DNA of 64,000 bases from Pseudomonas wayambapalatensis. GTDB lineage: Bacteria > Pseudomonadota > Gammaproteobacteria > Pseudomonadales > Pseudomonadaceae. The position numbers were made by a program, and so were the translations under genes. Of this stretch, positions 31,144 through 43,275 are shown in pieces. A model generated the notes under the pieces. That model searched no databases and was not told the DNA's origin. It worked only from the letters and a program-made list of their open reading frames with translations. Every line of letters begins with the position of its first letter. Position 1 is the first letter of the stretch. The stretch is from assembly GCA_014268975.2 (NCBI GenBank), contig CP077096.1:491001-555000 (forward strand), read 5' to 3'.

Positions 31144-32463
31144 ATGTTGAATACAAGGATCAGCCTGGTAGCGCTGGCACTCATCGCCGCCACTCAGGCC
31201 CAGGCCAACGACCAGGCCGAAAGCAAGGGCTTCATCGAGGACAGCCACGCCAACGTCCTCCTGCGCAACGCCTTCATCAACCGTGACAAGAAGCACCACA
31301 CCAACGACCAGTCCCAGTGGGGCCAGGGCGTGATCGCCAACTTCTCCTCCGGCTTCACCCAAGGCACCGTGGGTGTCGGTGTCGACGCCTTCGGCCTGTA
31401 CGCCGTGCGTCTGGATGGTGGCAAGGGTCGTAACCAGGGTGGCGGTGTCGACTTCTTCAAACGCTCCGACCCCACCTTCGACGGTGAGAAAACCAACGCC
31501 CCTCACAACCTGGCTCGTGGTGGTGCAGCGGTGAAGTTCCGCATCTCCAACACTGTGCTTAAGTACGGTGACCAGATGCCGGCTCTGCCGGTCCTGCAGT
31601 ACGACGACGCTCGTCTGCTGCCAGAGAGCTTCACTGGCACCATGATCACCTCCAAGGAGATCAAAGGCCTGGAGCTGAATGCAGGCCGCTTCACCCAGGA
31701 AGCCCGCAAGAGTGCCGAGCGCCGTGATGGCGGTGGCCTGAAGTCGATCAACGTGCTCGGCGGCAGCTACAAGTTCACCGACAACTTCACCGCGTCGCTG
31801 TACACCGCGGACAACGAAGATGTCATGAAGAAGCACTACCTGGGTCTGAACTACGTTTTCCCGATCGCGGCCGACCAGTCCCTGACCCTGGACTTCAACG
31901 GCTACAAGTCGGACATCGACAACAAGTATGTGCGTGAAGCTGGCCTGAATGGCGACCGCAACACCATCTGGAGCCTGGCGGCTACCTACGCCTATGGCCC
32001 GCACTCCTTCACGCTGGCCCACCAGCGCAGCACCGGCAGCACCGGCTACAACTATGGCTGGTACCAGAACGAAGGCGGTGTCGGCGACGGTGGTTCGACC
32101 ATCTACCTGGCCAACTCGTACTGGTCCGACTTCAACGCCGAAGACGAGCGCTCCTGGCAGTTGGGCTACGGCCTGGATTTCGGTGCCTTCGGCATTCCTG
32201 GTCTGACCTACAAGCTGGCTTACGTGGTGGGTGACAACATCAACACCCGCAACCTCAAGAACCCGGAAGGTTTCGGCGAGGGTAAGGAGCGCGAGATCTT
32301 CAACCAGGTTCGCTACGTGGTGCAGGACGGCCCGGCGAAGGACCTCTCGATCAAGCTGCGTAGTTCGTTCTTGCGTACCAACAACGCTGTGCGCCAAAAC
32401 GGCTACAACGACGACGGCAACGAAGTTCGCGTGTTCGTCGAATACCCGATCAGCATCTTCTGA
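31144..32463 (+). CDS. OprD-family outer-membrane porin
   Basis: The product is 439 aa with a signal peptide (MLNTRISLVALALIAATQAQA). OprD-family markers are GFIEDSHANVLLRNAFINRD near the start, QWGQGVIANFSSGFTQGTVG, and GTGYNYG-like loops (here STGYNYGWYQNEGG). The barrel ends in VFVEYPISIF. These 18-strand porins take up basic amino acids, aromatic acids or related small carboxylates; the exact substrate is not clear. The 3' end of this gene is partly duplicated about 1 kb downstream. It is divergent from the TonB receptor and convergent with the Rhs operon. Confidence 0.92.
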   Translation: MLNTRISLVALALIAATQAQANDQAESKGFIEDSHANVLLRNAFINRDKKHHTNDQSQWGQGVIANFSSGFTQGTVGVGVDAFGLYAVRLDGGKGRNQGGGVDFFKRSDPTFDGEKTNAPHNLARGGAAVKFRISNTVLKYGDQMPALPVLQYDDARLLPESFTGTMITSKEIKGLELNAGRFTQEARKSAERRDGGGLKSINVLGGSYKFTDNFTASLYTADNEDVMKKHYLGLNYVFPIAADQSLTLDFNGYKSDIDNKYVREAGLNGDRNTIWSLAATYAYGPHSFTLAHQRSTGSTGYNYGWYQNEGGVGDGGSTIYLANSYWSDFNAEDERSWQLGYGLDFGAFGIPGLTYKLAYVVGDNINTRNLKNPEGFGEGKEREIFNQVRYVVQDGPAKDLSIKLRSSFLRTNNAVRQNGYNDDGNEVRVFVEYPISIF

Positions 32464-32480
32464 TACTGATCTGGCGTAAC

Positions 32481-32512
32481 GAAACAGCCCCGGCATTTGC
32501 CGGGGCTGTTTC
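32481..32512 (+). terminator. Terminator of oprD
   Basis: A perfect 14-bp stem GAAACAGCCCCGGC / GCCGGGGCTGTTTC closes a 4-base loop 17 bp after the stop. Confidence 0.88.
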
Positions 32513-32521
32513 GTTTCAAGG

Positions 32522-32676
32522 CTAGCGCGCCAGCAGTTGCGGATAGTCGCCGAACCAATATTCCATCGCGTCGGCGTCCACGCCGTTTGCCCCGGTCCAG
32601 AAATCCACCGGATAGCTCCAGTCCGACGAGCGCGAGCTGCTCGGCGCCAGACCCTGATTGGTGAAACGCTGCAAAA
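32522..32676 (-). pseudogene. Orphan C-terminal fragment of an unidentified gene
   Basis: On the minus strand, in the frame closed by TAG at 32524-32522, about 50 codons read as plausible protein: VLQRFTNQGLAPSS, then DWSYPVDFWTGANGV and MEYWFGDYPQLLAR. Codon use is GC3-rich like real genes here. A stop lies just upstream where the sequence becomes the copy of the small 106-codon gene, so the fragment has no start. It looks like the tail of a lost gene, joined at 32676/32677. I do not recognise the family. Confidence 0.45.
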
Positions 32677-32879
32677 CGCGCGGTTCCAGTTCCTATTCTG
32701 CTGTCACGTGATTGGTGATTTTCAGTGACCTCAAGTACAACACTCCAGGCGGCCTGTGAGCCATCAGGACCTTCAATCGGGGAGGTGATGACGTAGCAGG
32801 GTTGGTTGAGGGGCAACTGGGTTTTACCGCCGTCACTTACATTTCGCCAGTACATGATTACATGAACAGGCCTGTTCAA
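32677..32879 (-). pseudogene. Truncated second copy of the 106-codon Rhs-linked gene
   Basis: These 203 bp align without gaps to 33669-33871 (constant offset 992) with about 21 mismatches by eye, near 90% identity. The copy covers the first ~68 codons (NRPVHVIMYWRNVSDGGKTQ to IGTGTARF). Its start codon is TTG where the intact copy has ATG, and the last ~38 codons are replaced by the unrelated fragment at 32522-32676. The open frame runs on out of frame to 32403 and is not meaningful. The TTG overlaps the TGA of the 32876-33346 gene. Confidence 0.7.
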
Positions 32880-33346
32880 TGATGTTGCTCGGCTGAAAAG
32901 TAATGCTCGATCGGCAATCCTGCACTTTCAAATTCAAACAGGACTTTCCACGTGAATGCGGTGGCCCAGCGATCAATCATCTCTCGTGCTTCATAACGAT
33001 TTTCGGTGGTGCAGGTCAGTGAGAAAATAGACGTTTTCTTTTTACCTTTGTACACATTTATCGAAGCCTGGTACTCGATCATGCGTTCTTCATCCGGTGC
33101 TCTGCACCAGATGTCCAAAGTGGCGGAAATAGGGACGCCGCTATCGAGTGTTCGCTCACTGCTCGCCATGAATATGTTATTGGCGAAAAAATTCTGTGTG
33201 ACCAGAAAGCGCACATGCTCATCGTCGATTGTTTCCAGAATGTCAGGGCCGATATCGACGAAGTCATTTTTCGAGATCGACCAACCGGTAGGGATACGCA
33301 GAGCCATCAGTGCGTGTTGCTGCACAATCGTTTGGATGATGTTCAT
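32876..33346 (-). CDS. Small protein in the Rhs tail, candidate orphan immunity
   Basis: The product is 156 aa and soluble, with no signal or membrane segment. It is acidic and rich in aromatic residues (MALRIPTGWSISKNDFVDIG, MIDRWATAFTWKVLFEFES) and lower in GC than its neighbours. It ends overlapping the start of the truncated 106-codon-gene copy. I recognise no family. Position on the variable side of an rhs gene, size, charge and low GC suit an immunity gene left behind after its toxin was replaced; this is inference. A cognate toxin is not visible next to it. Confidence 0.6.
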   Translation of the reverse strand: MNIIQTIVQQHALMALRIPTGWSISKNDFVDIGPDILETIDDEHVRFLVTQNFFANNIFMASSERTLDSGVPISATLDIWCRAPDEERMIEYQASINVYKGKKKTSIFSLTCTTENRYEAREMIDRWATAFTWKVLFEFESAGLPIEHYFSAEQHH

Positions 33347-33409
33347 ATTTTTATTTCAGATAGCTCATGTGGTCTGCCTGCGAGATCGGATGCCCATGGA
33401 ATTCGGGCA

Positions 33410-33499
33410 AACAACGCGGTACGGCAGGACCGCTACAACGACGACGGCAACGAAGCTCCCATGTTCGTCGAGTACCCGACCGACATCTTCTGATACTGA
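33410..33499 (+). pseudogene. Duplicate of the oprD 3' end
   Basis: These 90 bp match 32380-32469, the last 28 codons of oprD plus stop, at constant offset 1030 with about 13 mismatches (~86%). The frame is intact: NNAVRQDRYNDDGNE to VEYPTDIF and TGA. Nothing of the rest of oprD is present upstream. The level of divergence says it is not a fresh duplication; more likely it is the 3' end of another allele or paralogue brought in with the neighbouring module. Confidence 0.8.
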
Positions 33500-33550
33500 G
33501 CTTGCTGATGCCCGAATTGCGCAGATAGATCTTGGCCGACTTGAGGGCGT

Positions 33551-33871
33551 TCAGGTGGGCGTCCCCCTGGCGTCAAACTCGAGGCGCGCTACGGCCCGTC
33601 GTCCCTCGTAGACTTCCAGCGTACTGCCAGGGCATAACAGGTCCCTGGGGGCATTGGGGGCAAGGAAGCGCGCGGTTCCGGTTCCTATTCTGCTGTCACG
33701 TGATTGGTGATTCTTCGTGACCTCAAGTACAACACTCCAGGCCGCCCGTGAGCCGTCAGGGCCTTCAATCGGAGCGGTGATGACGTAGTAGGGGTGGTTG
33801 AGGGGAAGCTGGGCCTTACCGCCGTCACTTACATTTCGCCAGTATATGGTTACGTGAACAGGTCTGTTCAT
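33551..33871 (-). CDS. Candidate immunity gene directly after the Rhs toxin
   Basis: The product is 106 aa from ATG 33871, 7 bp after the rhs stop and on the same strand, so it is almost surely co-transcribed. It is soluble and beta-rich: VHVTIYWRNVSDGGKAQLPL, WSVVLEV, IGTGTARF, PGSTLEVYEGRRAVARLEF. The closing PG...VYEGRRAV part faintly recalls domain III of EF-Tu, a hint rather than a homology claim. Position makes it the first candidate for the toxin's immunity protein. A truncated paralogue lies 1 kb away. It could instead be a conserved accessory gene found after several toxin types. Confidence 0.65.
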   Translation of the reverse strand: MNRPVHVTIYWRNVSDGGKAQLPLNHPYYVITAPIEGPDGSRAAWSVVLEVTKNHQSRDSRIGTGTARFLAPNAPRDLLCPGSTLEVYEGRRAVARLEFDARGTPT

Positions 33872-33878
33872 TGGTTGA

Positions 33879-36800
33879 TCACTTTCCACAAGAGATACCC
33901 CGCGTCCAACGTGGCTTGATGCGAGCACGATTCAAATCTGCAATTTCTATGTATCTGGCTTTGCCAATACTGTCCAAATTGCTGGAGGAGAACGCTGCAT
34001 TGGCAAGTTTGTCAGGAACCTTGACCTGAACGATTTTGAAGTCTCCGCCGTGGCCCATCGTCTTACCCCATGTCACAGCATCTTTGTATGACTCAGCAAA
34101 CCATTTTCCTTCCATGGTGCCATTCGATGTCCACGTGCCGGTTCGCATAAGTCCGTTATATTCTTCCATGCTCATGGAGCGGTAGAGGACAGTCTCCCAC
34201 CCTAGCGGGTCAATCCACATAAACGGATTGGGAGCATAGCGGTAAAGGTTCCACCCCCCCGCCAACCCTATCGGATCCGGCTGGGTAAAGCGTCCGATGT
34301 CGGGATCATAGAATCTGAAGGTGTTGTAATGCAGTCCTGTCTCACGGTCCAGGTACTGGCCTTGGAACCTCAGGTTCTGCTCCATGCCCTGGTCTGGGTT
34401 GCAGCGCTCGGCGGCAGTGTTGCCCCACACCCGATAGGTAGCTTCCCATTGGGTCTGTCCATCTTCGTCGGTCTGACGATATGGCAGACCGTTGAGGTGG
34501 TTGTGAAAATGCAGTACTCGTTGATGGGCGCCGTTCCCATCGACGCGTGCAAGGGGTTCGTGGCCAGATTCTGCATACAGGTACAGACTGTTTCGACCGT
34601 TGCGGCGCTCATGCAGCAGACGCAGGCCATCCCACAGGAAGTCGGTTCTTCCCAGCAGAAGGCCGCGTACATCGTATTGTTCCTTGGCAACGCGTCTGCC
34701 TAGTGGGTCGTAGTGCATCCTTACGCAGGTTTCTCGACCGGCATGCAGGGTGCGGACTTCCACCAGTCTGTGCTCAGCGTCGTAGCGAAAGCGTTGAACG
34801 CCTCGTGCGCTGCTGACCTTTTCAATCAGGCGCCCGAAGCCGTCGTAGCGATAGCGCTTGTCCTGATACTTCAGCAGTTGGTTGTACTGAACCGAAGAGT
34901 TGTTGATTCCGTCGAGCAGGTTTGCGGCGGGGTCGTAATTGAACTGTTCTTGACGACCACCAGATGAGGCATAGCTTGAGCGCACCCTGGCCGTAACGTC
35001 GTAGGCAATGGTCTCAAGCGTGTTGCCTGTGGCGTGAAACTCCTCCACCTGGATCAGATTGTCGGCGCCGTCATAGCTGTAGTGCCGACGTGCGTTAGCC
35101 AAAGTGGCGGATGTCGGATCGCTTGCGTGATTGCCACGGCTGCGAAGCCGACCCAACTGGTCGTAATCGCTGCGGTACAGCAGGCGTCCCTGGGTACGAT
35201 TGATTTCTCGATGCAGCCGATCGCGCTCGAAGTCGGCGATGACGTGCCCATCGAGGTTCAGTTGATGCAGATGACCCGAGCCATACATCAAGCGGTTGAT
35301 CGAACGACCATCGGGAAGAATGAGCCTGGTCTGATTACCCAGCTCGTCGTAGGAATAGCCAAGTGTGCCATGTGGTGTGTGCTCCTCGAGCACATGCCCC
35401 AGCTTGTCATAGACATAGCTCAGCGTCTGGGAGTTGCCGTCCAGGGCAATGGTCTGCACCGCGAGCAACTGGTCCAAGGCATCAAACCGGTACTCCGTGC
35501 GGCCATCGGAGGTGATCTTGGCCACGAGCCGACCGATGGCATCGCGTTCGAGCTGGTGGGCGACAGGAGTATCGGGGCTCTCTGGCGCTGGGTGGAACAC
35601 CAGCCGTATCAGATTGCCCAGAGCGTCATAGCTATAGGTCTTGTGACTACCCCCCAGATCGCGTTGCATTGCCAGGCGGTCACACGCGTCCCAGGAGAAT
35701 CGATAAGCTTCGCCGTTTTCGTTGACGAGCTCTACCAGTCGGCCGTAGTGATCGTACTCGAAACGCACGCTACGGCCGGCCGCGTCAACTTGGCGGCTGA
35801 GCTGTCCGCGTGCTGTGTATGAGTAGCGCGTGGTATGGCCAGTCGCGTTCACATGGGCAATCAGGGCGCCATCGACCGCACGCTGGTAAAGCTCGTGCGT
35901 ACCGTCTGGCCGAGTGATGGACTGCAACCTGCCTTGTGCGTCATGGCTGTATCGAGTCGTGCAGCCCTCTGCATCCGTCACCTGTGCTAGATGGCCGCGG
36001 TGGTCGTAGCTGTAATGAGTGACGGAGCCCGTGCAATCGACTGTCTCGATGACTTGATCCAGGTCGTTCCAGCGCTGTGATCTTGTTTTTCCCGCAGCGT
36101 CGACCATCTCGACCATCCTGCCGTGATGGTCATGGCGAAACCGCGTCAGATGTCCTTCAGGGTCTTCTTCCCGGGTGCAGTTGCCACGCGGGTCATAGCG
36201 GTATTTCCAGCGATTCCCAGCGCGGTCGACTTGCTCTCTGGGTAGCGCCCAATGTTCCAGCCAATACGTGGATTCGCTGCGCCCGAGCGGATCCACCGTC
36301 TCGGTCAGGTTGCCGGATTCATCATAGAAGTATTGCCAGCGTCCGCCTTGAGGGTCTACCGCGCCCAACAGCTGACGTTCATCGTTCCATTCGAAATGCC
36401 AGGTGTTCGCCAGGGCGTCGGTGTGTTCCACGACTTGATATTGGTTGTTCCAGCGATGCGTATGAGTGCGTTGCAGGCTGTCCGTAACATGGGTCAGCCC
36501 GGCAATCAGGTCGTAGGAAAACTGGTATTGATCACCCTCGGAAGTCCAGTGCCGACAGACGCGCCATTCATCGCCGAGGGCTTGCCACTCATAGTGACAA
36601 CGTAATCCCGACGCGTTCCGGTGTTCAATCAGCCGTCGGTGTTCACCATAGACGAAAAGCCGCTGCACTTGGCCGATGCCATCCCTGACTTCAGCGAGCT
36701 CTCCGAACGCGTCGTAGTCATAACAGACCAGCGATTCGTTGCTCCCGTCACTGTACACGCGAACAATCTGGGCGACGCGAGAGGGCCATCGGGAGCTATA

Positions 36801-38183
36801 GCGCAATTCCATTCTGGTAGCGCCGTACGTGTCATCGAGCCCGATCAGGCGACCATGCTCGTCGTACCGAACGTGCACCCGATTGTCATTGCGGTCACCC
36901 AACAGGCGCAGGCGCAGGCGTTGGGGATCTATTGGGGAGGGTTCGAATAATCGATAGAGGCCGTCCATATCCTCGATCAACAACTCGCCATCAGCCGCGC
37001 GTCTTACGCTCAAACCTTCGCCGGCACTGAATACTGCGTCGCCGGGGGGGATCGTGCCCATATCGATGATCCGCGCCTGCTCATCCGTGTACAGCAGGCG
37101 TTCTCCGTCATCCGAATCGGCGATCAGGTTCACGCAGACTTCGTAGGGAACGCTCCAACCTCTGCCGAGCAAACCGTCCTGGCGTTCGTCCAGGCTGCTA
37201 TAGAAGCGCTGCCAGACCAGTGGCATCAGCGCCGGTAGTGTGAAGTCCAGCTCCTGCTCGCCGCTCAACACTTTCGCGCCAGTGGCTGCATGCACCGGGT
37301 TGGGTGCACCGGTTATGGCACGTGTGAGTGCCCCCGTCACCTGGCTACTGACGACACTCGCGGCGCCACCGAGCAGCATGCAGCCAAACTTGCTGTAGAA
37401 CTTGCCCCCACGGCCACGCAACATCATCAGCGCGGTGATGGCCAAGCCTATGCCTGGCGTCTTGCCGCTGCGGATCTCTCGTACGACGATTTTCTCGCCA
37501 CCAATGCGCACGTTGTCCGATATCAGGCCGGAGTCGACGATCACTGCGTCGCAGGTGCTGCGATCGCCACTGCGCGCCGCTGGTTGGCCATTGATGCTGA
37601 CCTTGCCAGAGCCCTCGGCGATATATTGGGGAGGCATCGCCGGATGCTTGGTGCACAGCACCTTGTCATCGTCCGCAGGTTCGGTGTTCGGGGCTGGCGA
37701 GGCTACGGTAGGCCGCCACATTTGCGAGAAGAACGCCTTCGTCATGTCGAGGAAGGTTTGCTCTTGCTCTTCTTCCCCTTCATCAGCCTGGCCAGCGGCA
37801 GGAGGAGGCAACACCACACCTGCAGCCCGGGCTGCAGGTTTTGAGTTTATGTAGGTATTTTGCGAACCACTGGCAATGTGGGCCTGCACTGTCGGTGGAA
37901 AAAGCGCGTTACCTATACCTTCGCAGAACCGACTCAGTGCGGTGTCCGCTCCAGTGCTGGCCATTGCCACGCCGACCACCACCCCCACGACCGCGCCCAG
38001 CACAACGCAGCCCAGACCGCCAGTGGCAACAGTGATGCCAAGCGCAGCCCCGACCGCAGCCGTGGCCAAGGCCCCGATGGCGATGGTGGCGGCGACTTCG
38101 AGTACACCGCCGACGATGTCGGCCATCATCGAGGTGTGCATCAGTGCGTCGCCTTCGCGCGCAGCCCAGAGTGCGTCGGACAT
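33879..38183 (-). CDS. T6SS Rhs effector with prePAAR/PAAR, YD-repeat cage and C-terminal toxin
   Basis: The product is 1434 aa. The N-terminus has the prePAAR motif AARxxDxxxH (AAREGDALMH, residues 7-16). A hydrophobic region (about 24-76) that needs an Eag chaperone follows, then PAAR-like segments that cap VgrG (SGSQNTYINSKPAA; SGKVSINGQPAARSGD). The Rhs shell follows (about 300-1325) with many YD repeats such as YSYDALGNL, closing with QPDPIGLAGGWNLYRYAPNP and IDPLGW, where the toxin is cleaved off. The last 105 residues (1330-1434, bases 33882-34196) are the variable toxin: LYRSMSMEEYNGLM, GKWFAES, ARYIEI. That pattern suggests an ADP-ribosyltransferase-like fold (inference). Confidence 0.93.
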   Translation of the reverse strand: MSDALWAAREGDALMHTSMMADIVGGVLEVAATIAIGALATAAVGAALGITVATGGLGCVVLGAVVGVVVGVAMASTGADTALSRFCEGIGNALFPPTVQAHIASGSQNTYINSKPAARAAGVVLPPPAAGQADEGEEEQEQTFLDMTKAFFSQMWRPTVASPAPNTEPADDDKVLCTKHPAMPPQYIAEGSGKVSINGQPAARSGDRSTCDAVIVDSGLISDNVRIGGEKIVVREIRSGKTPGIGLAITALMMLRGRGGKFYSKFGCMLLGGAASVVSSQVTGALTRAITGAPNPVHAATGAKVLSGEQELDFTLPALMPLVWQRFYSSLDERQDGLLGRGWSVPYEVCVNLIADSDDGERLLYTDEQARIIDMGTIPPGDAVFSAGEGLSVRRAADGELLIEDMDGLYRLFEPSPIDPQRLRLRLLGDRNDNRVHVRYDEHGRLIGLDDTYGATRMELRYSSRWPSRVAQIVRVYSDGSNESLVCYDYDAFGELAEVRDGIGQVQRLFVYGEHRRLIEHRNASGLRCHYEWQALGDEWRVCRHWTSEGDQYQFSYDLIAGLTHVTDSLQRTHTHRWNNQYQVVEHTDALANTWHFEWNDERQLLGAVDPQGGRWQYFYDESGNLTETVDPLGRSESTYWLEHWALPREQVDRAGNRWKYRYDPRGNCTREEDPEGHLTRFRHDHHGRMVEMVDAAGKTRSQRWNDLDQVIETVDCTGSVTHYSYDHRGHLAQVTDAEGCTTRYSHDAQGRLQSITRPDGTHELYQRAVDGALIAHVNATGHTTRYSYTARGQLSRQVDAAGRSVRFEYDHYGRLVELVNENGEAYRFSWDACDRLAMQRDLGGSHKTYSYDALGNLIRLVFHPAPESPDTPVAHQLERDAIGRLVAKITSDGRTEYRFDALDQLLAVQTIALDGNSQTLSYVYDKLGHVLEEHTPHGTLGYSYDELGNQTRLILPDGRSINRLMYGSGHLHQLNLDGHVIADFERDRLHREINRTQGRLLYRSDYDQLGRLRSRGNHASDPTSATLANARRHYSYDGADNLIQVEEFHATGNTLETIAYDVTARVRSSYASSGGRQEQFNYDPAANLLDGINNSSVQYNQLLKYQDKRYRYDGFGRLIEKVSSARGVQRFRYDAEHRLVEVRTLHAGRETCVRMHYDPLGRRVAKEQYDVRGLLLGRTDFLWDGLRLLHERRNGRNSLYLYAESGHEPLARVDGNGAHQRVLHFHNHLNGLPYRQTDEDGQTQWEATYRVWGNTAAERCNPDQGMEQNLRFQGQYLDRETGLHYNTFRFYDPDIGRFTQPDPIGLAGGWNLYRYAPNPFMWIDPLGWETVLYRSMSMEEYNGLMRTGTWTSNGTMEGKWFAESYKDAVTWGKTMGHGGDFKIVQVKVPDKLANAAFSSSNLDSIGKARYIEIADLNRARIKPRWTRGISCGK

Positions 38184-38192
38184 GGTTGTCGT

Positions 38193-38645
38193 TCAGCCGA
38201 GGTTGTCGAAGTCGAGCGACTGTTTGAGAGCCGCCCAGTGCGCCGCTTCCTCCTCACCCAATGGCTGCGGCTTCACGTAGCTCAGGGCGAGCATCTTGCG
38301 CGAGCCCGGCAGCAACAGCGCCAGTTGATATTGGTAAACCTTCTCTTTGCCCTTGGTGAACTGGCTCTGCAACTCGATGCCTTCCAGTTTTCCATCTGCT
38401 CCCAGCTTCACCGGCTGGGGTGTGTGCAAGCGCAGATCCAGCACCTGCTGGCGCAATCGCTGGATCTGGTCGTCGAAGTTGCTTTGCAACGTTTCCCCTT
38501 CGTTCAACAGGCTGCGGCTGACTACCAGTGAGGTGCCCAGTGTCTCGAAACGCAGGATGTTGATGCTGGTATCTCGCACCTGATCGGTTGGGAGGTCGAA
38601 GCGAAATTCGTTGAGGCGATAGTTCATGATTCGGGTGTCCGTCAT
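38193..38645 (-). CDS. EagR chaperone (DUF1795/DcrB-like) for the Rhs effector
   Basis: The product is 150 aa with the DUF1795 pattern: YRLNEFRFDLPTDQVRDTSINIL near the start, then QRLRQQVLDLRL, YQYQLALLLPG and LALSYVKPQP. Eag proteins wrap the hydrophobic N-terminal helices of prePAAR effectors and load them onto VgrG. Placement between vgrG and rhs is diagnostic. The ATG overlaps the vgrG stop by 4 bp (ATGA), and rhs begins 9 bp later, so the three are coupled. Confidence 0.9.
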   Translation of the reverse strand: MTDTRIMNYRLNEFRFDLPTDQVRDTSINILRFETLGTSLVVSRSLLNEGETLQSNFDDQIQRLRQQVLDLRLHTPQPVKLGADGKLEGIELQSQFTKGKEKVYQYQLALLLPGSRKMLALSYVKPQPLGEEEAAHWAALKQSLDFDNLG

Positions 38646-40576
38646 TGGCGCGGGAATTTGTCGCTGACCCGACCGTCGATGCTGCCTTTGTCACCATGGC
38701 TGCCCGGTGTGGTGCCTGCTGCTCCACCGATGTTCAGGTCGAGCGTGCCGTTGGGGGTATTGATCTGTGCATGTTCGCTGGCGTTGATGTTCAGGCGTAC
38801 GCCTGTGAGATTGATGTGACCGTTGGCGTTGAGCTCCAGCACACTGTCGCCGCACACCAGACGCAACTTTTCCCCGGCCTCCATCAGGTAGGTGGTGCTG
38901 ATGCTGTCGGTCTTGCTGGCGCCAACCAGCAAGGTATCGTGATGGCGTACTGCGCGTACTCGATCCTGGCCGATGGTCACCATCTCCACCATTCCGACGC
39001 TCTTGGTCCGGCTTATGCCCACCGACAACGTTTCGTTCTGCTCCACCACCGTGTCCATGTTGCGCTCGGCATGCACATACAACTGCTCCTGCCCGCGCTT
39101 GTCCTCCATGCGGATCTCGTTGAAGTTGGCCGGGCTGCCGCCTTTGCTCGAACGGCTCTTCATGCCGCTCTGGGTGGCGTTGCCGGGCAGGTCGTAGGGC
39201 ACGGCCTGCTCGGCGTTGTACACCCGGCCAGTGATGATCGGTCGGTCGGGGTCGCCTTCGAGAAAGCTGACGATCACTTCCTGGCCGATCCGCGGGATCT
39301 GCATCGAGCCCCAGTTCTTGCCGGCCCAGGCCTGGGATACGCGGATCCAGCACGAGCTGTTCTCGTTGGACTGGTCGTGGCGGTCCCAGTGGAAGTGCAC
39401 CTTCACCCGACCGTACTGGTCGGTCCAGATCTCCTCGCCGGCCGGGCCAACCACCACGGCAGTCTGCGGGCCCTTGACCAGCGGGCGCAGGGTGCTCGAT
39501 ACCGGCCGGTAGCTCTGCTGGGCGTCGATGCAGCTCAGGTTGCTCTCGAACTGCGCCGAGCCGCTGCCGCCGCCGGTTTCCAGGCGCTCCTGTACTACGT
39601 AGTAGCGGGCGGCGACGATCAGGTACTCGCGGTTCTGGTCCTGGCGGGAGAAGCCGCTGAGGCTGAACAGATGACCACTGCCAAGACCACGGGCGTTGCC
39701 GCGCAGCTCCACGCGTTCATGCAGGCTCTGCAGCGACTCGAGACGGGTGCGCGCATAGTGCTCGCCATCCTGGGTCTGCTCATAGGCGCCGGGGTAGTCG
39801 TACAGCGGGTAGTCGCCGGCCTGGTGCGGGCGTGGCATGGCCGAGCGCACGTCGATCCGTGCGCTGGGGCGCTGGAAATCGTAGTCGTTGAGTTCCAGCG
39901 AGCCGGGCTGAACCTCCTGCGCCAGGTGCCAGTCGTTGATGTGGTCGCGCTCGCGGTGCTGGCCGTCGGGCGGATAGAACGGCACCGACTCGTAGCCCGG
40001 CGCCTTCTGGTGCGCGCCATAGGCGTCGGCCATCACCAAGACGTGGCGTTCTTGTTCATGACGGAAGAAGTAGTAGATGCCTTCTTCTTCCATCAGCCGG
40101 CTGACGAAGTCGAAGCTGGTCTCGCGGTATTGCACGCAGTACTCGCGCTCGCGATAGCTGCGGCTCAGGGCGTCCTCGAAGTCCGAGAACCCCAGGTCGC
40201 GGAACACCTGCTTGATGATCTGCGGTGCGCTAAGGTGCTGGAAGATCCGGCAGTCGCTGGTGCGTGTCAGCAGCCACAGCCAGGGCCGCAGGGTGACGCG
40301 GTAGCTGGCGAACTGCCCGCGATCGACCGATTGGCTGCAGCGCGCGACGATGCCATGAAAGTGGCGCGAGCCCCCGCCGCTCATCTGCAGCGACAGACTC
40401 ATGGGTTTGCCCAGCAGCTGGTTGAGGTCGATGGCCGCGTCGTCGCTGGTCAACTGCAGCTCGTAGTCGAACAGGCGGCCGAGCTCTTCGCTGCCGCCCA
40501 TCTCGCTGAGGATCAGCACGTTCGGCCCCAGGGGGCTGTTGATCTGCGCCAGGCGCGTCAGTTGCGTGAACAGCAT
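38642..40576 (-). CDS. vgrG: T6SS spike protein VgrG (TssI)
   Basis: The product is 644 aa from ATG 40576, which has CAGGA 6 bases upstream; GTG 40603, overlapping the clpV stop, is an alternative that adds 9 residues. The gp27-like part contains LFDYELQLTSDD and YREREYCVQYRETSFDFVSRLMEEEGIYYFF. The gp5 OB-fold reads TDQYGRVKVHFHWDR and SCWIRVSQAWAGKNWG, with IPRIGQEVIVSFLEGDPDRP. A beta-helix needle follows to the end; no extra effector domain is attached. It carries the PAAR-tipped Rhs effector. Confidence 0.95.
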   Translation of the reverse strand: MLFTQLTRLAQINSPLGPNVLILSEMGGSEELGRLFDYELQLTSDDAAIDLNQLLGKPMSLSLQMSGGGSRHFHGIVARCSQSVDRGQFASYRVTLRPWLWLLTRTSDCRIFQHLSAPQIIKQVFRDLGFSDFEDALSRSYREREYCVQYRETSFDFVSRLMEEEGIYYFFRHEQERHVLVMADAYGAHQKAPGYESVPFYPPDGQHRERDHINDWHLAQEVQPGSLELNDYDFQRPSARIDVRSAMPRPHQAGDYPLYDYPGAYEQTQDGEHYARTRLESLQSLHERVELRGNARGLGSGHLFSLSGFSRQDQNREYLIVAARYYVVQERLETGGGSGSAQFESNLSCIDAQQSYRPVSSTLRPLVKGPQTAVVVGPAGEEIWTDQYGRVKVHFHWDRHDQSNENSSCWIRVSQAWAGKNWGSMQIPRIGQEVIVSFLEGDPDRPIITGRVYNAEQAVPYDLPGNATQSGMKSRSSKGGSPANFNEIRMEDKRGQEQLYVHAERNMDTVVEQNETLSVGISRTKSVGMVEMVTIGQDRVRAVRHHDTLLVGASKTDSISTTYLMEAGEKLRLVCGDSVLELNANGHINLTGVRLNINASEHAQINTPNGTLDLNIGGAAGTTPGSHGDKGSIDGRVSDKFPRQ

Positions 40577-40599
40577 GGGTGATCCTGTTTGCGCGGCGC

Positions 40600-43275
40600 T
40601 CAACCGGCCGCGCTGAAGTCATAGTGCAGTTCGTTGTCGCGCGCGCCGATGCTGACGCTGGCCAGCGGCTTGCCTTCGAGCAGACGGGTGAGGAACTCGC
40701 GGCTCATGTCCGGCAGCAGGCCGTTGGTCAGGATCGCGTCGATCATTCGCCCGCCGCTCTCGGTCTCGGTGCAGCGCGAGACGATCAGCTCGACCACCGC
40801 GTCGTCGTAGGCGAAGCCGACCTTGTGCGTGGCCTCGACACGTTTGCGGATGCGCTCCAGTTGCAGACGGGTGATGGCCTTGAGCATGGCGTCGCTGAGC
40901 GGGTAGTAGGGGATGGTTACCAGGCGCCCGAGCAGCGCGGGCGGGAAGATCTCCAGCAGCGGCTTGCGCAGCAAGGTGGCGACCGCATCCGGTTCGGGCA
41001 GGGTCTGCGGGTCCTTGCAGATATCGGCGATCAGCTCGGTGCCGGCGTTGGTGGTGAGCAGGATCAGGGTGTTGCGAAAATCGATCTGGCGCCCTTCGCC
41101 ATCTTCCATCACGCCCTTGTCGAACACCTGGAAGAAGATCTCGTGCACGTCGGGGTGGGCCTTTTCCACCTCGTCGAGCAGCACCACGCTGTAGGGGCGG
41201 CGGCGCACGGCCTCGGTCAGCACGCCACCTTCGCCGTAGCCGACATAGCCGGGCGGTGCGCCCTTGAGGGTGGAGACGGTGTGCGCTTCCTGGAACTCGC
41301 TCATGTTGATGGTGATCAGGTTCTGCTCGCCGCCATACATGGCCTCGGCCAGCGCCAGGGCGGTCTCGGTCTTGCCCACGCCCGAGGTGCCGGCAAGCAT
41401 GAACACGCCAATGGGTTTGTTGGGGTTGTCGAGGCCGGCGCGGGAGGTCTGGATACGCTTGGCGATCATCTTCAGGGCGTGGTCCTGGCCGATGATGCGC
41501 TTGCCCAGGTGGCTGTCGAGGTTGAGCACCGTCTCGATCTCGTTGCGTGCCATGCGCCCTACCGGGATACCGGTCCAGTCGGCAACCACCGAAGCCACGG
41601 CCTGGTAGTCGACGGTCGGCAGGATCAGCGGGCTTTCGCCCTGCAGGGCGCTCAGGCGCTGCTGCAAGTCGATGAGTTGTTCGCGCAGCGCATGGCTGCC
41701 TTGGGCATCGACCTCCTGATCGACCACCCCGACCTGCTCACGCAACTGGGCGCGGGTGGCCAGCAACTGATCGACCAGGGCTTTCTCTTCGGCCCAGCGG
41801 TTTTCCAGCTCCAGCAGGCGCTGACGCTCTTCGGTCAGCAGGGTGTCGGCCTGGGCTTGGCGTTGCTCGGTGGCGACACCAATGGCCGCTTCGCGGGCGA
41901 TGATCTGCAGTTCGACTTCCAGCGCCTCGATACGCCGACGGCTGTCATCGACCTCTGCGGGCACTGCATGCAGGCTGATGGCCACGCGTGCGCAGGCGGT
42001 ATCGAGCAGGCTCACCGACTTGTCGGGCAATTGCCGGGCGGGGATGTAGCGGTGCGACAGCTTGACTGCCGCCTCCAGGGCTTCGTCGAGGATCTGCACC
42101 TGATGGTGCTTCTCCATGGTCGAGGCCACGCCGCGCATCATCAGCAGCGCCTTTGGTTCGCTCGGCTCATCGACCTGCACCACCTGGAAGCGGCGGGTCA
42201 GTGCCGGATCCTTCTCGATGTGTTTCTTGTACTCGGCCCAGGTGGTCGCTGCCACGGTGCGCAGGCTGCCACGGGCCAGTGCTGGCTTGAGCAGGTTGGC
42301 GGCATCGCCGGTCCCGGCCGCGCCACCGGCACCGACCAGGGTGTGGGCTTCGTCGATGAACAGGATGATGGGTTTGGGCGAGGCCTGGACGTCCTCGATG
42401 ACCTGGCGCAGACGCTGCTCGAACTCACCCTTCATGCTGGCGCCAGCCTGCAACAGGCCGACATCCAGGCTGCGCAGCTCGACATCCTTGAGCGCGGGCG
42501 GTACATCGCCGGCAACGATGCGCAAGGCGAAGCCCTCGACGACGGCAGTTTTGCCCACGCCCGCTTCGCCGGTGAGGATCGGGTTGTTCTGGCGGCGACG
42601 CATGAGGATGTCGACCAGTTGGCGGATCTCTTCGTCGCGGCCGACGATCGGGTCGAGCTTGCCGCTGCGTGCCTGCTCGGTCAGGTCCACGGTGAAGCGC
42701 TTGAGTGCCTCCTGCTTGCCCATCGCAGCGGGGGCCACGGCGCCGCTGGCTTCGCCCGGCGCTGCCGCGGTGAAGCCGTCGCTGGCGGCCAGCTTGTTCT
42801 CGGGGGAGTCGCCGACGTACTCGTCGAAACGCTCGCTCAGGGCCTCGACCTTGAGCTTGGCGAACTCGCTCGACAGACCCAGCAGGGCATTGCGCAGGCT
42901 CGGGGTCTTGAGGATGCCGACCAGCAGGTAGCCGGTGCGCACCTGGCTTTCGCCGAACATCAGGCTGCCGTAGACCCAACCGCGTTCCACTGCCTCTTCG
43001 ACCTGCGAGGACAGGTCGGTGATCGAAGTCGAGCCCCGTGGCAGGCGATCGAGGGCGTCGGTCAGATCGCGGGCCAGGCGTGCCGGCTCGACATTGAACT
43101 GGCGCACGATGCGATGCAGGTCGCTGTCCTGCACTTGCAGCAGTTGGTGCAGCCAGTGCACCAGCTCCACGTAGGGATTGCCGCGCAGCTTGCAGAACAC
43201 CGTGGCGGCCTCGATGGCCTTGTAGGCGACGCTGTTGAGTTTGCCGAACAGCGCGGCGCGGCTGATTTCACCCAT
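40600..43275 (-). CDS. clpV: T6SS sheath-disassembly ATPase ClpV (TssH)
   Basis: The product is 891 aa from ATG 43275 (AGGAG upstream), the usual start MGEISRAALFGKLN. The N domain (1-160) binds the sheath protein TssC. There are two AAA+ modules: Walker A1 GEAGVGKTAVVEG at about 233 and Walker A2 GTSGVGKTETALAL at about 628, with Walker B ILFIDEAHTL and VVLLDEVEKAHP. The middle coiled-coil domain is present. It recycles contracted TssB/TssC sheaths with ATP. It overlaps tssG by 8 bp. Confidence 0.97.
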   Translation of the reverse strand: MGEISRAALFGKLNSVAYKAIEAATVFCKLRGNPYVELVHWLHQLLQVQDSDLHRIVRQFNVEPARLARDLTDALDRLPRGSTSITDLSSQVEEAVERGWVYGSLMFGESQVRTGYLLVGILKTPSLRNALLGLSSEFAKLKVEALSERFDEYVGDSPENKLAASDGFTAAAPGEASGAVAPAAMGKQEALKRFTVDLTEQARSGKLDPIVGRDEEIRQLVDILMRRRQNNPILTGEAGVGKTAVVEGFALRIVAGDVPPALKDVELRSLDVGLLQAGASMKGEFEQRLRQVIEDVQASPKPIILFIDEAHTLVGAGGAAGTGDAANLLKPALARGSLRTVAATTWAEYKKHIEKDPALTRRFQVVQVDEPSEPKALLMMRGVASTMEKHHQVQILDEALEAAVKLSHRYIPARQLPDKSVSLLDTACARVAISLHAVPAEVDDSRRRIEALEVELQIIAREAAIGVATEQRQAQADTLLTEERQRLLELENRWAEEKALVDQLLATRAQLREQVGVVDQEVDAQGSHALREQLIDLQQRLSALQGESPLILPTVDYQAVASVVADWTGIPVGRMARNEIETVLNLDSHLGKRIIGQDHALKMIAKRIQTSRAGLDNPNKPIGVFMLAGTSGVGKTETALALAEAMYGGEQNLITINMSEFQEAHTVSTLKGAPPGYVGYGEGGVLTEAVRRRPYSVVLLDEVEKAHPDVHEIFFQVFDKGVMEDGEGRQIDFRNTLILLTTNAGTELIADICKDPQTLPEPDAVATLLRKPLLEIFPPALLGRLVTIPYYPLSDAMLKAITRLQLERIRKRVEATHKVGFAYDDAVVELIVSRCTETESGGRMIDAILTNGLLPDMSREFLTRLLEGKPLASVSIGARDNELHYDFSAAG

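Follow-up and report, generated by a model that had tools for sequence, protein, structure and literature searches.

Why does a second, incomplete 3′ end of the porin gene oprD lie among the small genes that follow an Rhs toxin in Pseudomonas wayambapalatensis? The window (the whole stretch of DNA that was analyzed, 64,000 nucleotides (nt) of assembly GCA_014268975.2, CP077096.1, positions 491,001 to 555,000, forward strand) comes from a genome that consists of one contig of 5.25 Mb. The region in question is the 3′ end of a type VI secretion system (T6SS) Rhs locus, in which the minus-strand gene order is clpV–vgrG–dcrB–rhs, as read from open reading frames (ORFs) and, for vgrG, dcrB and rhs, from Pfam matches; clpV was named from its own sequence, with no Pfam scan. 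We consider it likely that the region is the scar of a toxin swap at this locus. In the order away from rhs, it contains M2, oprD′, a toxin stub, Imm156, M1, the X tail, a terminator-like inverted repeat (short, and noted by eye) and the intact oprD. The features are as follows.

31144..32463, plus strand: oprD, intact OprD family porin gene and right-hand neighbor of the locus (Pfam OprD, E 1.7e-132).
32523..32673, minus strand: X tail, the 3′ tail of an immunity-like gene (SSDWSYPVDFW...LLAR and stop), outer layer.
32674..32879, minus strand: M1, a second, orphan M that keeps only its first ~69 codons and runs into the X tail; 89% nt to M2.
32876..33346, minus strand: Imm156, an intact 156-codon predicted immunity gene of the displaced toxin.
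33351..33409, minus strand: toxin stub, the last 18 codons (33354–33409) and stop of a displaced Rhs toxin gene.
33410..33505, plus strand: oprD′, a decayed oprD 3′ end whose start abuts the toxin stub; 84–86% to the genome's own oprD.
33551..33871, minus strand: M2, a 106-codon predicted immunity gene of the current toxin.
33879..38183, minus strand: rhs, a PAAR-Rhs effector gene (Pfam PAAR, DUF6531, RHS repeats and RHS) with its C-terminal toxin at about 33882–34190.
38193..38645, minus strand: DcrB-family gene between vgrG and rhs (Pfam DcrB, 3.9e-23).
38642..40603, minus strand: vgrG (Pfam Phage_GPD, 7e-110).

The combination of PAAR and an RHS core in a single protein, adjoining vgrG and a DcrB-family gene, places rhs among the T6SS Rhs effectors. 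The region was compared with a same-genus set of one genome per species, in which the joint search scored 2 first-look candidates per genome, and with 19 longer oprD loci. These loci are not a random sample: L040–L048 were taken from the best oprD, M or Imm156 hits, and L083–L092 were chosen by hand from the joint-search hits. L046 corresponds to genome G170, L047 to G102, L083 to G257 and L049 to G007; L048 is identical to L051 and comes from P. guariconensis. Only modules of the query set were recognizable in the loci, and pieces of other modules may be missed.

The evidence for a swap centers on the joint at 33409/33410. The minus strand of 33351–33409 encodes PEFHGHPISQADHMSYLK and a stop codon, directly before Imm156. 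In P. guariconensis (L048), the rhs toxin ends in PEFHGHPISQADYMTYLKSQK and is directly followed by a homolog of Imm156 (56% at the amino acid (aa) level). The stub shared 16 of 18 residues with this toxin end, and the L048 toxin is 3 codons longer. A tblastn search with the stub aligned 19 residues (E 1.2e-7), and its score of 41.2 bits against a best of 25.4 bits in 100 triplet-shuffled windows led us to reject a chance match. Since the stub and Imm156 mirror the intact L048 pair, a toxin of the L048 type, followed by Imm156, appears to have been resident once and to have been replaced later. The stub begins inside the toxin and has no Rhs core, and is an effector remnant of the kind expected from sequential displacement. 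Toxin homology extends to 33409 and oprD homology begins at 33410 with no gap, so that the two ends abut as in a non-homologous joint.

From its place and its homolog, Imm156 itself is predicted to confer immunity to the displaced toxin. It gave no Pfam match, and its cluster (P0004; 97%, 16 members) is listed under the UniRef name "Immunity protein 8". A single-protein search found it in 2 of 298 same-genus genomes, including its own, and a wider scan of genome contigs, from which records near its own genome may be left out, found it in P. guariconensis only.

The current toxin has a different partner. The rhs core was alike in L046, L047 and L048, and the last ~105 residues were alike only in L046, where the same toxin (93% aa) stands immediately before M (61% aa). 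Since the pair recurs in a second species, M is predicted to serve the current toxin as its immunity gene; in the window, M2 starts 7 nt past the rhs stop, in the usual place of a small gene behind a variable C-terminal toxin. Third positions of identical codons in the window and L046 toxins were only 40–52% alike, indicating that toxin and M have long been together as an old pair and ruling out that the toxin passed recently between G170 and the window. A family model found M in 4 of 398 same-genus genomes, counting its own and a partial match in G007, and a single-protein search found it in 5 of 298 (its own included, two being weak partial matches). There was no match to M in the wider scan of genome contigs, where records near its own genome may be left out, and none in a plasmid search (near mode). 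A second rhs locus in G007 (L049, 9318–9680) has a 120-codon ORF whose end resembles that of M and whose start had no match. As for the toxin (33882–34190), neither it nor seven relatives matched a Pfam family, and the best solved chain by sequence had E 0.18. An alignment of seven sequences contained invariant LxR and EGKWFAE stretches, and one cluster among the relatives has 680 members. M2, Imm156 and the toxin end of rhs fall in near-identical protein clusters (9, 16 and 22 members, respectively), which suggests that some of the arrangement recurs in close strains. Imm156 occurs at 97% in a record of Pseudomonas sp. MH2, and the toxin at 94% in Pseudomonas sp. GD03867.

A repeat search of 31500–35000 (minimum length 20) recovered two direct repeats and no inverted pair: an M repeat of 208 nt (32674–32881 and 33666–33873; 89%, offset 992) and an oprD repeat of 96 nt (32380–32475 and 33410–33505; 84%, offset 1030). 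An earlier sequence-only reading of this DNA had placed both repeats, the oprD 3′ end and the 106-codon gene, in this order and with these offsets, and its estimate of ~86% over 90 nt for the oprD pair agrees with the measured 85.6%. It had described the 106-codon gene as present twice; copy 2 is whole (33551–33871), whereas copy 1 keeps only about the first 69 codons and then passes into other sequence. Its view that a single simple duplication would not do is borne out by the offsets, which differ by 38 nt, and by what lies between the repeats, which it had not mentioned: the 156-codon gene (32876–33346), preceded by the toxin 3′ stub (33351–33409). The same pieces agree with its proposal that a new toxin/immunity module arrived with a piece of oprD while the tail of the old module stayed, as the stray oprD end directly adjoins what is left of the displaced toxin, its last codons, with the predicted immunity gene behind them. 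That interpretation was partly supported and largely right. It spoke of two versions of the Rhs locus end, and the remnants are real, but the 106-codon gene is no common locus end: it is predicted to encode immunity to the current toxin, and M1 lies in a layer beyond that of the displaced toxin, which makes at least three layers.

The outer layers consist of M1 and the X tail. M1 has TTG where M2 has ATG, its start overlaps the stop of Imm156, and in the 68 codons compared with M2 it has 9 non-silent changes and 13 silent ones (0.27 of the 48.2 silent sites). The X tail matched each of two X copies in L047 at 63% over 52 aa, and X in L083 at 72% over 54 aa. Its place directly behind the rhs toxin in L083 makes X a predicted immunity gene, for a toxin of a third type. 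Imm156 and the X tail would both be orphan immunity genes, each having its counterpart directly behind a toxin in another locus (L048 and L083, respectively). M and X adjoin each other in L047 and, for this reason, the joint between M1 and X looks like a deletion within an M–X pair.

Is this end of rhs a site where displaced pieces accumulate in other species? An rhs gene lies on the oprD side in 8 of the 19 loci (L042, L043, L046, L047, L048, L083, L088 and L090), and displaced pieces were observed in three of these eight (L046, L047 and L083). In L046 (10006–10168), the first 30 codons of an ankyrin gene are set against the final 26 of an immunity-like gene of 225 codons, a further joint between displaced pieces at this site. 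L047 (7258–9615) has the order M, X, another gene and X again; its two X copies are 75% alike, and the frame of the second is interrupted near the 3′ end. In L083 (2115–6393), a displaced rhs tip with ~200 residues of Rhs core lies between X and two tandem ankyrin genes, followed by oprD. Three species (L043, L088 and L090, from G003, G336 and G144) have a single module ending 72–73 bp from oprD, the layout that a donor would need. The sequence-only reading had named strains of such a layout as support for its proposal; they exist, but their module differs from those in the window, being another toxin with its 225-codon gene. The other five loci have an ankyrin and/or a glutamate-synthase-like gene between rhs and oprD. 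The latter stands beside oprD in many relatives, and its best match in the window's own genome (79% aa) is far off, at G000:C1:4468193-4469788 (L052, L054).

A search for the joint in 398 genomes with 321 bases (33340–33660) gave a match in 147 of them, its own genome included. Among the listed matches outside its own genome, only the oprD part was found, except in G276, where the oprD part matched in one location and the toxin end, together with the first part of Imm156, in a second. Neither the joint nor the spacer was found in any other of the 398 genomes (one per species, with two first-look candidates scored in each), a result that says nothing on the age of the joint within the species; the relatives thus do not all share the double arrangement, an outcome that would have spoken against the earlier proposal. 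The spacer, 57 bases between oprD′ and M2 (33494–33550), had no clear source in its own genome or the loci searched, the best other match in its own genome being ~21 bases (E 0.05).

We propose that linear DNA from a related strain, carrying rhs, the new toxin, the predicted immunity gene M2 and the 3′ end of oprD, entered the cell. One end would have recombined homologously, probably inside rhs or vgrG or upstream, and the other end would have been attached non-homologously at 33409/33410, which falls within the final codons of the old toxin gene. The old toxin would thereby have been displaced, leaving its stub and Imm156 behind, and the retained Imm156 is predicted still to protect against kin carrying that toxin. 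The pieces would then be layers of successive swaps, the oldest nearest oprD. Since immunity of the M type was already resident once before, the toxin type of M1 probably held the locus, was displaced and returned. A more specific version of this history is tentative and, in our judgment, improbable as it stands: M1 from the first stay was still present when the toxin and M2 arrived, and the retained immunity may have let the strain survive a killer and then take up the DNA of the killer, with the oprD piece as its tag. If so, immunity came before the weapon, and orphan immunity genes would be re-entry doors as well as shields.

Several observations weigh against the proposed swap. Among the genomes searched, none had the donor layout of M beside oprD and none had the pre-swap layout; G170, the only other sampled carrier of toxin and M, has a 114-codon gene, remnants and a glutamate-synthase-like gene between M and oprD. 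The homologous end was not located, and a scan of clpV–rhs in 500-base steps against 7 relatives, two of which covered part only, showed no clear switch of the nearest relative. The contrast between vgrG, for which L048 was nearest (92% aa, against 87% for L046 and L047), and clpV, for which L046 was nearest (96%), is a weak hint of a breakpoint. oprD′ was not clearly closer to another species than to the genome's own oprD. Short microhomology at the illegitimate joint is a feature of homology-facilitated illegitimate recombination, and none was seen at 33409/33410 in comparison with proxy parents, which are not the true parents. The AlphaFold model of the toxin was unusable (mean predicted local distance difference test (pLDDT) score, 38.6), and the immunity roles given to M2 and Imm156 in the swap are predicted from gene order and homology.

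The most serious rival, which we regard as unlikely, divides the history into two events: a swap put M2 beside the old toxin stub, and the 3′ end of the genome's own oprD was later inserted or duplicated between them. It draws on two likenesses. Both oprD′ and the own oprD have T at column 48 and end in TGATACTGA, states that are rare among the relatives compared, and M1 resembles M2 more than either resembles M in other species. The first likeness can also be read as pointing to a source of oprD′ that was probably within the same clade. At columns 9, 12, 15, 18 and 63, however, the states of the own oprD are missing from oprD′ and are carried by only 0–3 of 8 relatives, so that oprD′ is not a recent copy of the own gene. 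Over 27 codons, oprD′ differs from the own oprD by 5 silent and 8 non-silent changes, against 4.5–8.5 silent and 1–3.5 non-silent changes between the own oprD and six relatives; given this excess of non-silent changes, oprD′ has been drifting without the constraint on oprD. In silent changes, over ~16 sites, oprD′ is no further from L056 (2.5) or L046 (3) than from the own oprD (5). The silent changes between oprD and oprD′ (5 of 16.2 sites, 0.31) do not decide between a donor piece and an old own copy. The proportions of silent change in the oprD and M pairs (0.31 and 0.27) are similar, as would be the case if the same split between two lineages lay behind both, though the numbers are small. 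Finally, oprD′ points the same way as the real oprD, and the extra event would have to happen to restore the convergent oprD–immunity layout of a real locus.

A circle model, after Jackson 2009, would have an episomal circle of core fragment and tip recombine into rhs and push the old tip downstream. L083 lends it substance, since the displaced tip there is still joined to its Rhs core; in the window, the stub is preceded by no core and abuts oprD′, and the model does not explain why an oprD end should stand at the joint. Core-bearing and core-less remnants thus occur at the same hotspot. We rejected the circle as very improbable for the window; one-ended (homology-facilitated illegitimate) recombination fits better, because the non-homologous end of the arriving DNA is legible. 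A simple tandem duplication (oprD–M copied as one segment, with later indels), which would account for two repeats in the same order, is less probable again and was likewise rejected, since the two offsets disagree, copying of oprD–M cannot make the intervening stub and Imm156, and M1 runs into X while M2 runs into its own 3′ end. An assembly artefact, for which we found no supporting point, is the least credible and was rejected, given that the copies differ by 11–16%, that the genome is a single contig and that the near-identical clusters cover M2, Imm156 and the toxin end.

Events of the proposed kind are already known. Jackson 2009 (PMC2935791) described displacement of Rhs C-termini via circles, in which displaced tips keep core fragments. 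As there, an old Rhs tip remains downstream of the intact gene in the window; unlike there, the stub has no core, and it is G257, at the same hotspot, that fits the description. Kirchberger 2017 (PMC5361080) described sequential displacement of T6SS effector genes and arrays of orphan immunity genes in V. cholerae and proposed homology-facilitated illegitimate recombination, including one event with a shifted 3′ end of the old effector. The window shares the new module at the 3′ end of a T6SS cluster, the old immunity genes downstream and the 3′ end of the old effector; it differs in host (Pseudomonas), in locus (Rhs) and in the piece of a chromosomal neighbor, oprD, at the joint. In the T6SS islands of P. 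aeruginosa (PMC11751169), effector swapping has its main breakpoint at the vgrG 3′ end and less precise sites downstream, and is likewise read as homology-facilitated illegitimate recombination; a remnant stack and a carried-over neighbor, as far as seen in that account, set the window apart. At the Serratia Rhs1 locus (Hagan 2023, PMC10539506), a gene downstream of the Rhs module is similarly homologous to the immunity gene of another strain's toxin, and protection by this orphan immunity protein, 2280, was tested at the bench, whereas protection in the window is predicted. Displaced toxin ends therefore have two published models, the circle of Jackson 2009 and the one-ended illegitimate joining of Kirchberger 2017, and with same-species genomes the choice between them, the donor and the order of events are directly checkable. 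What the window adds to both is an unusually legible scar: the non-homologous end of the incoming DNA is readable at base level because it carries a piece of the neighboring gene, which suggests that a chromosomal neighbor can serve as a tag for swaps at the rhs–oprD hotspot.

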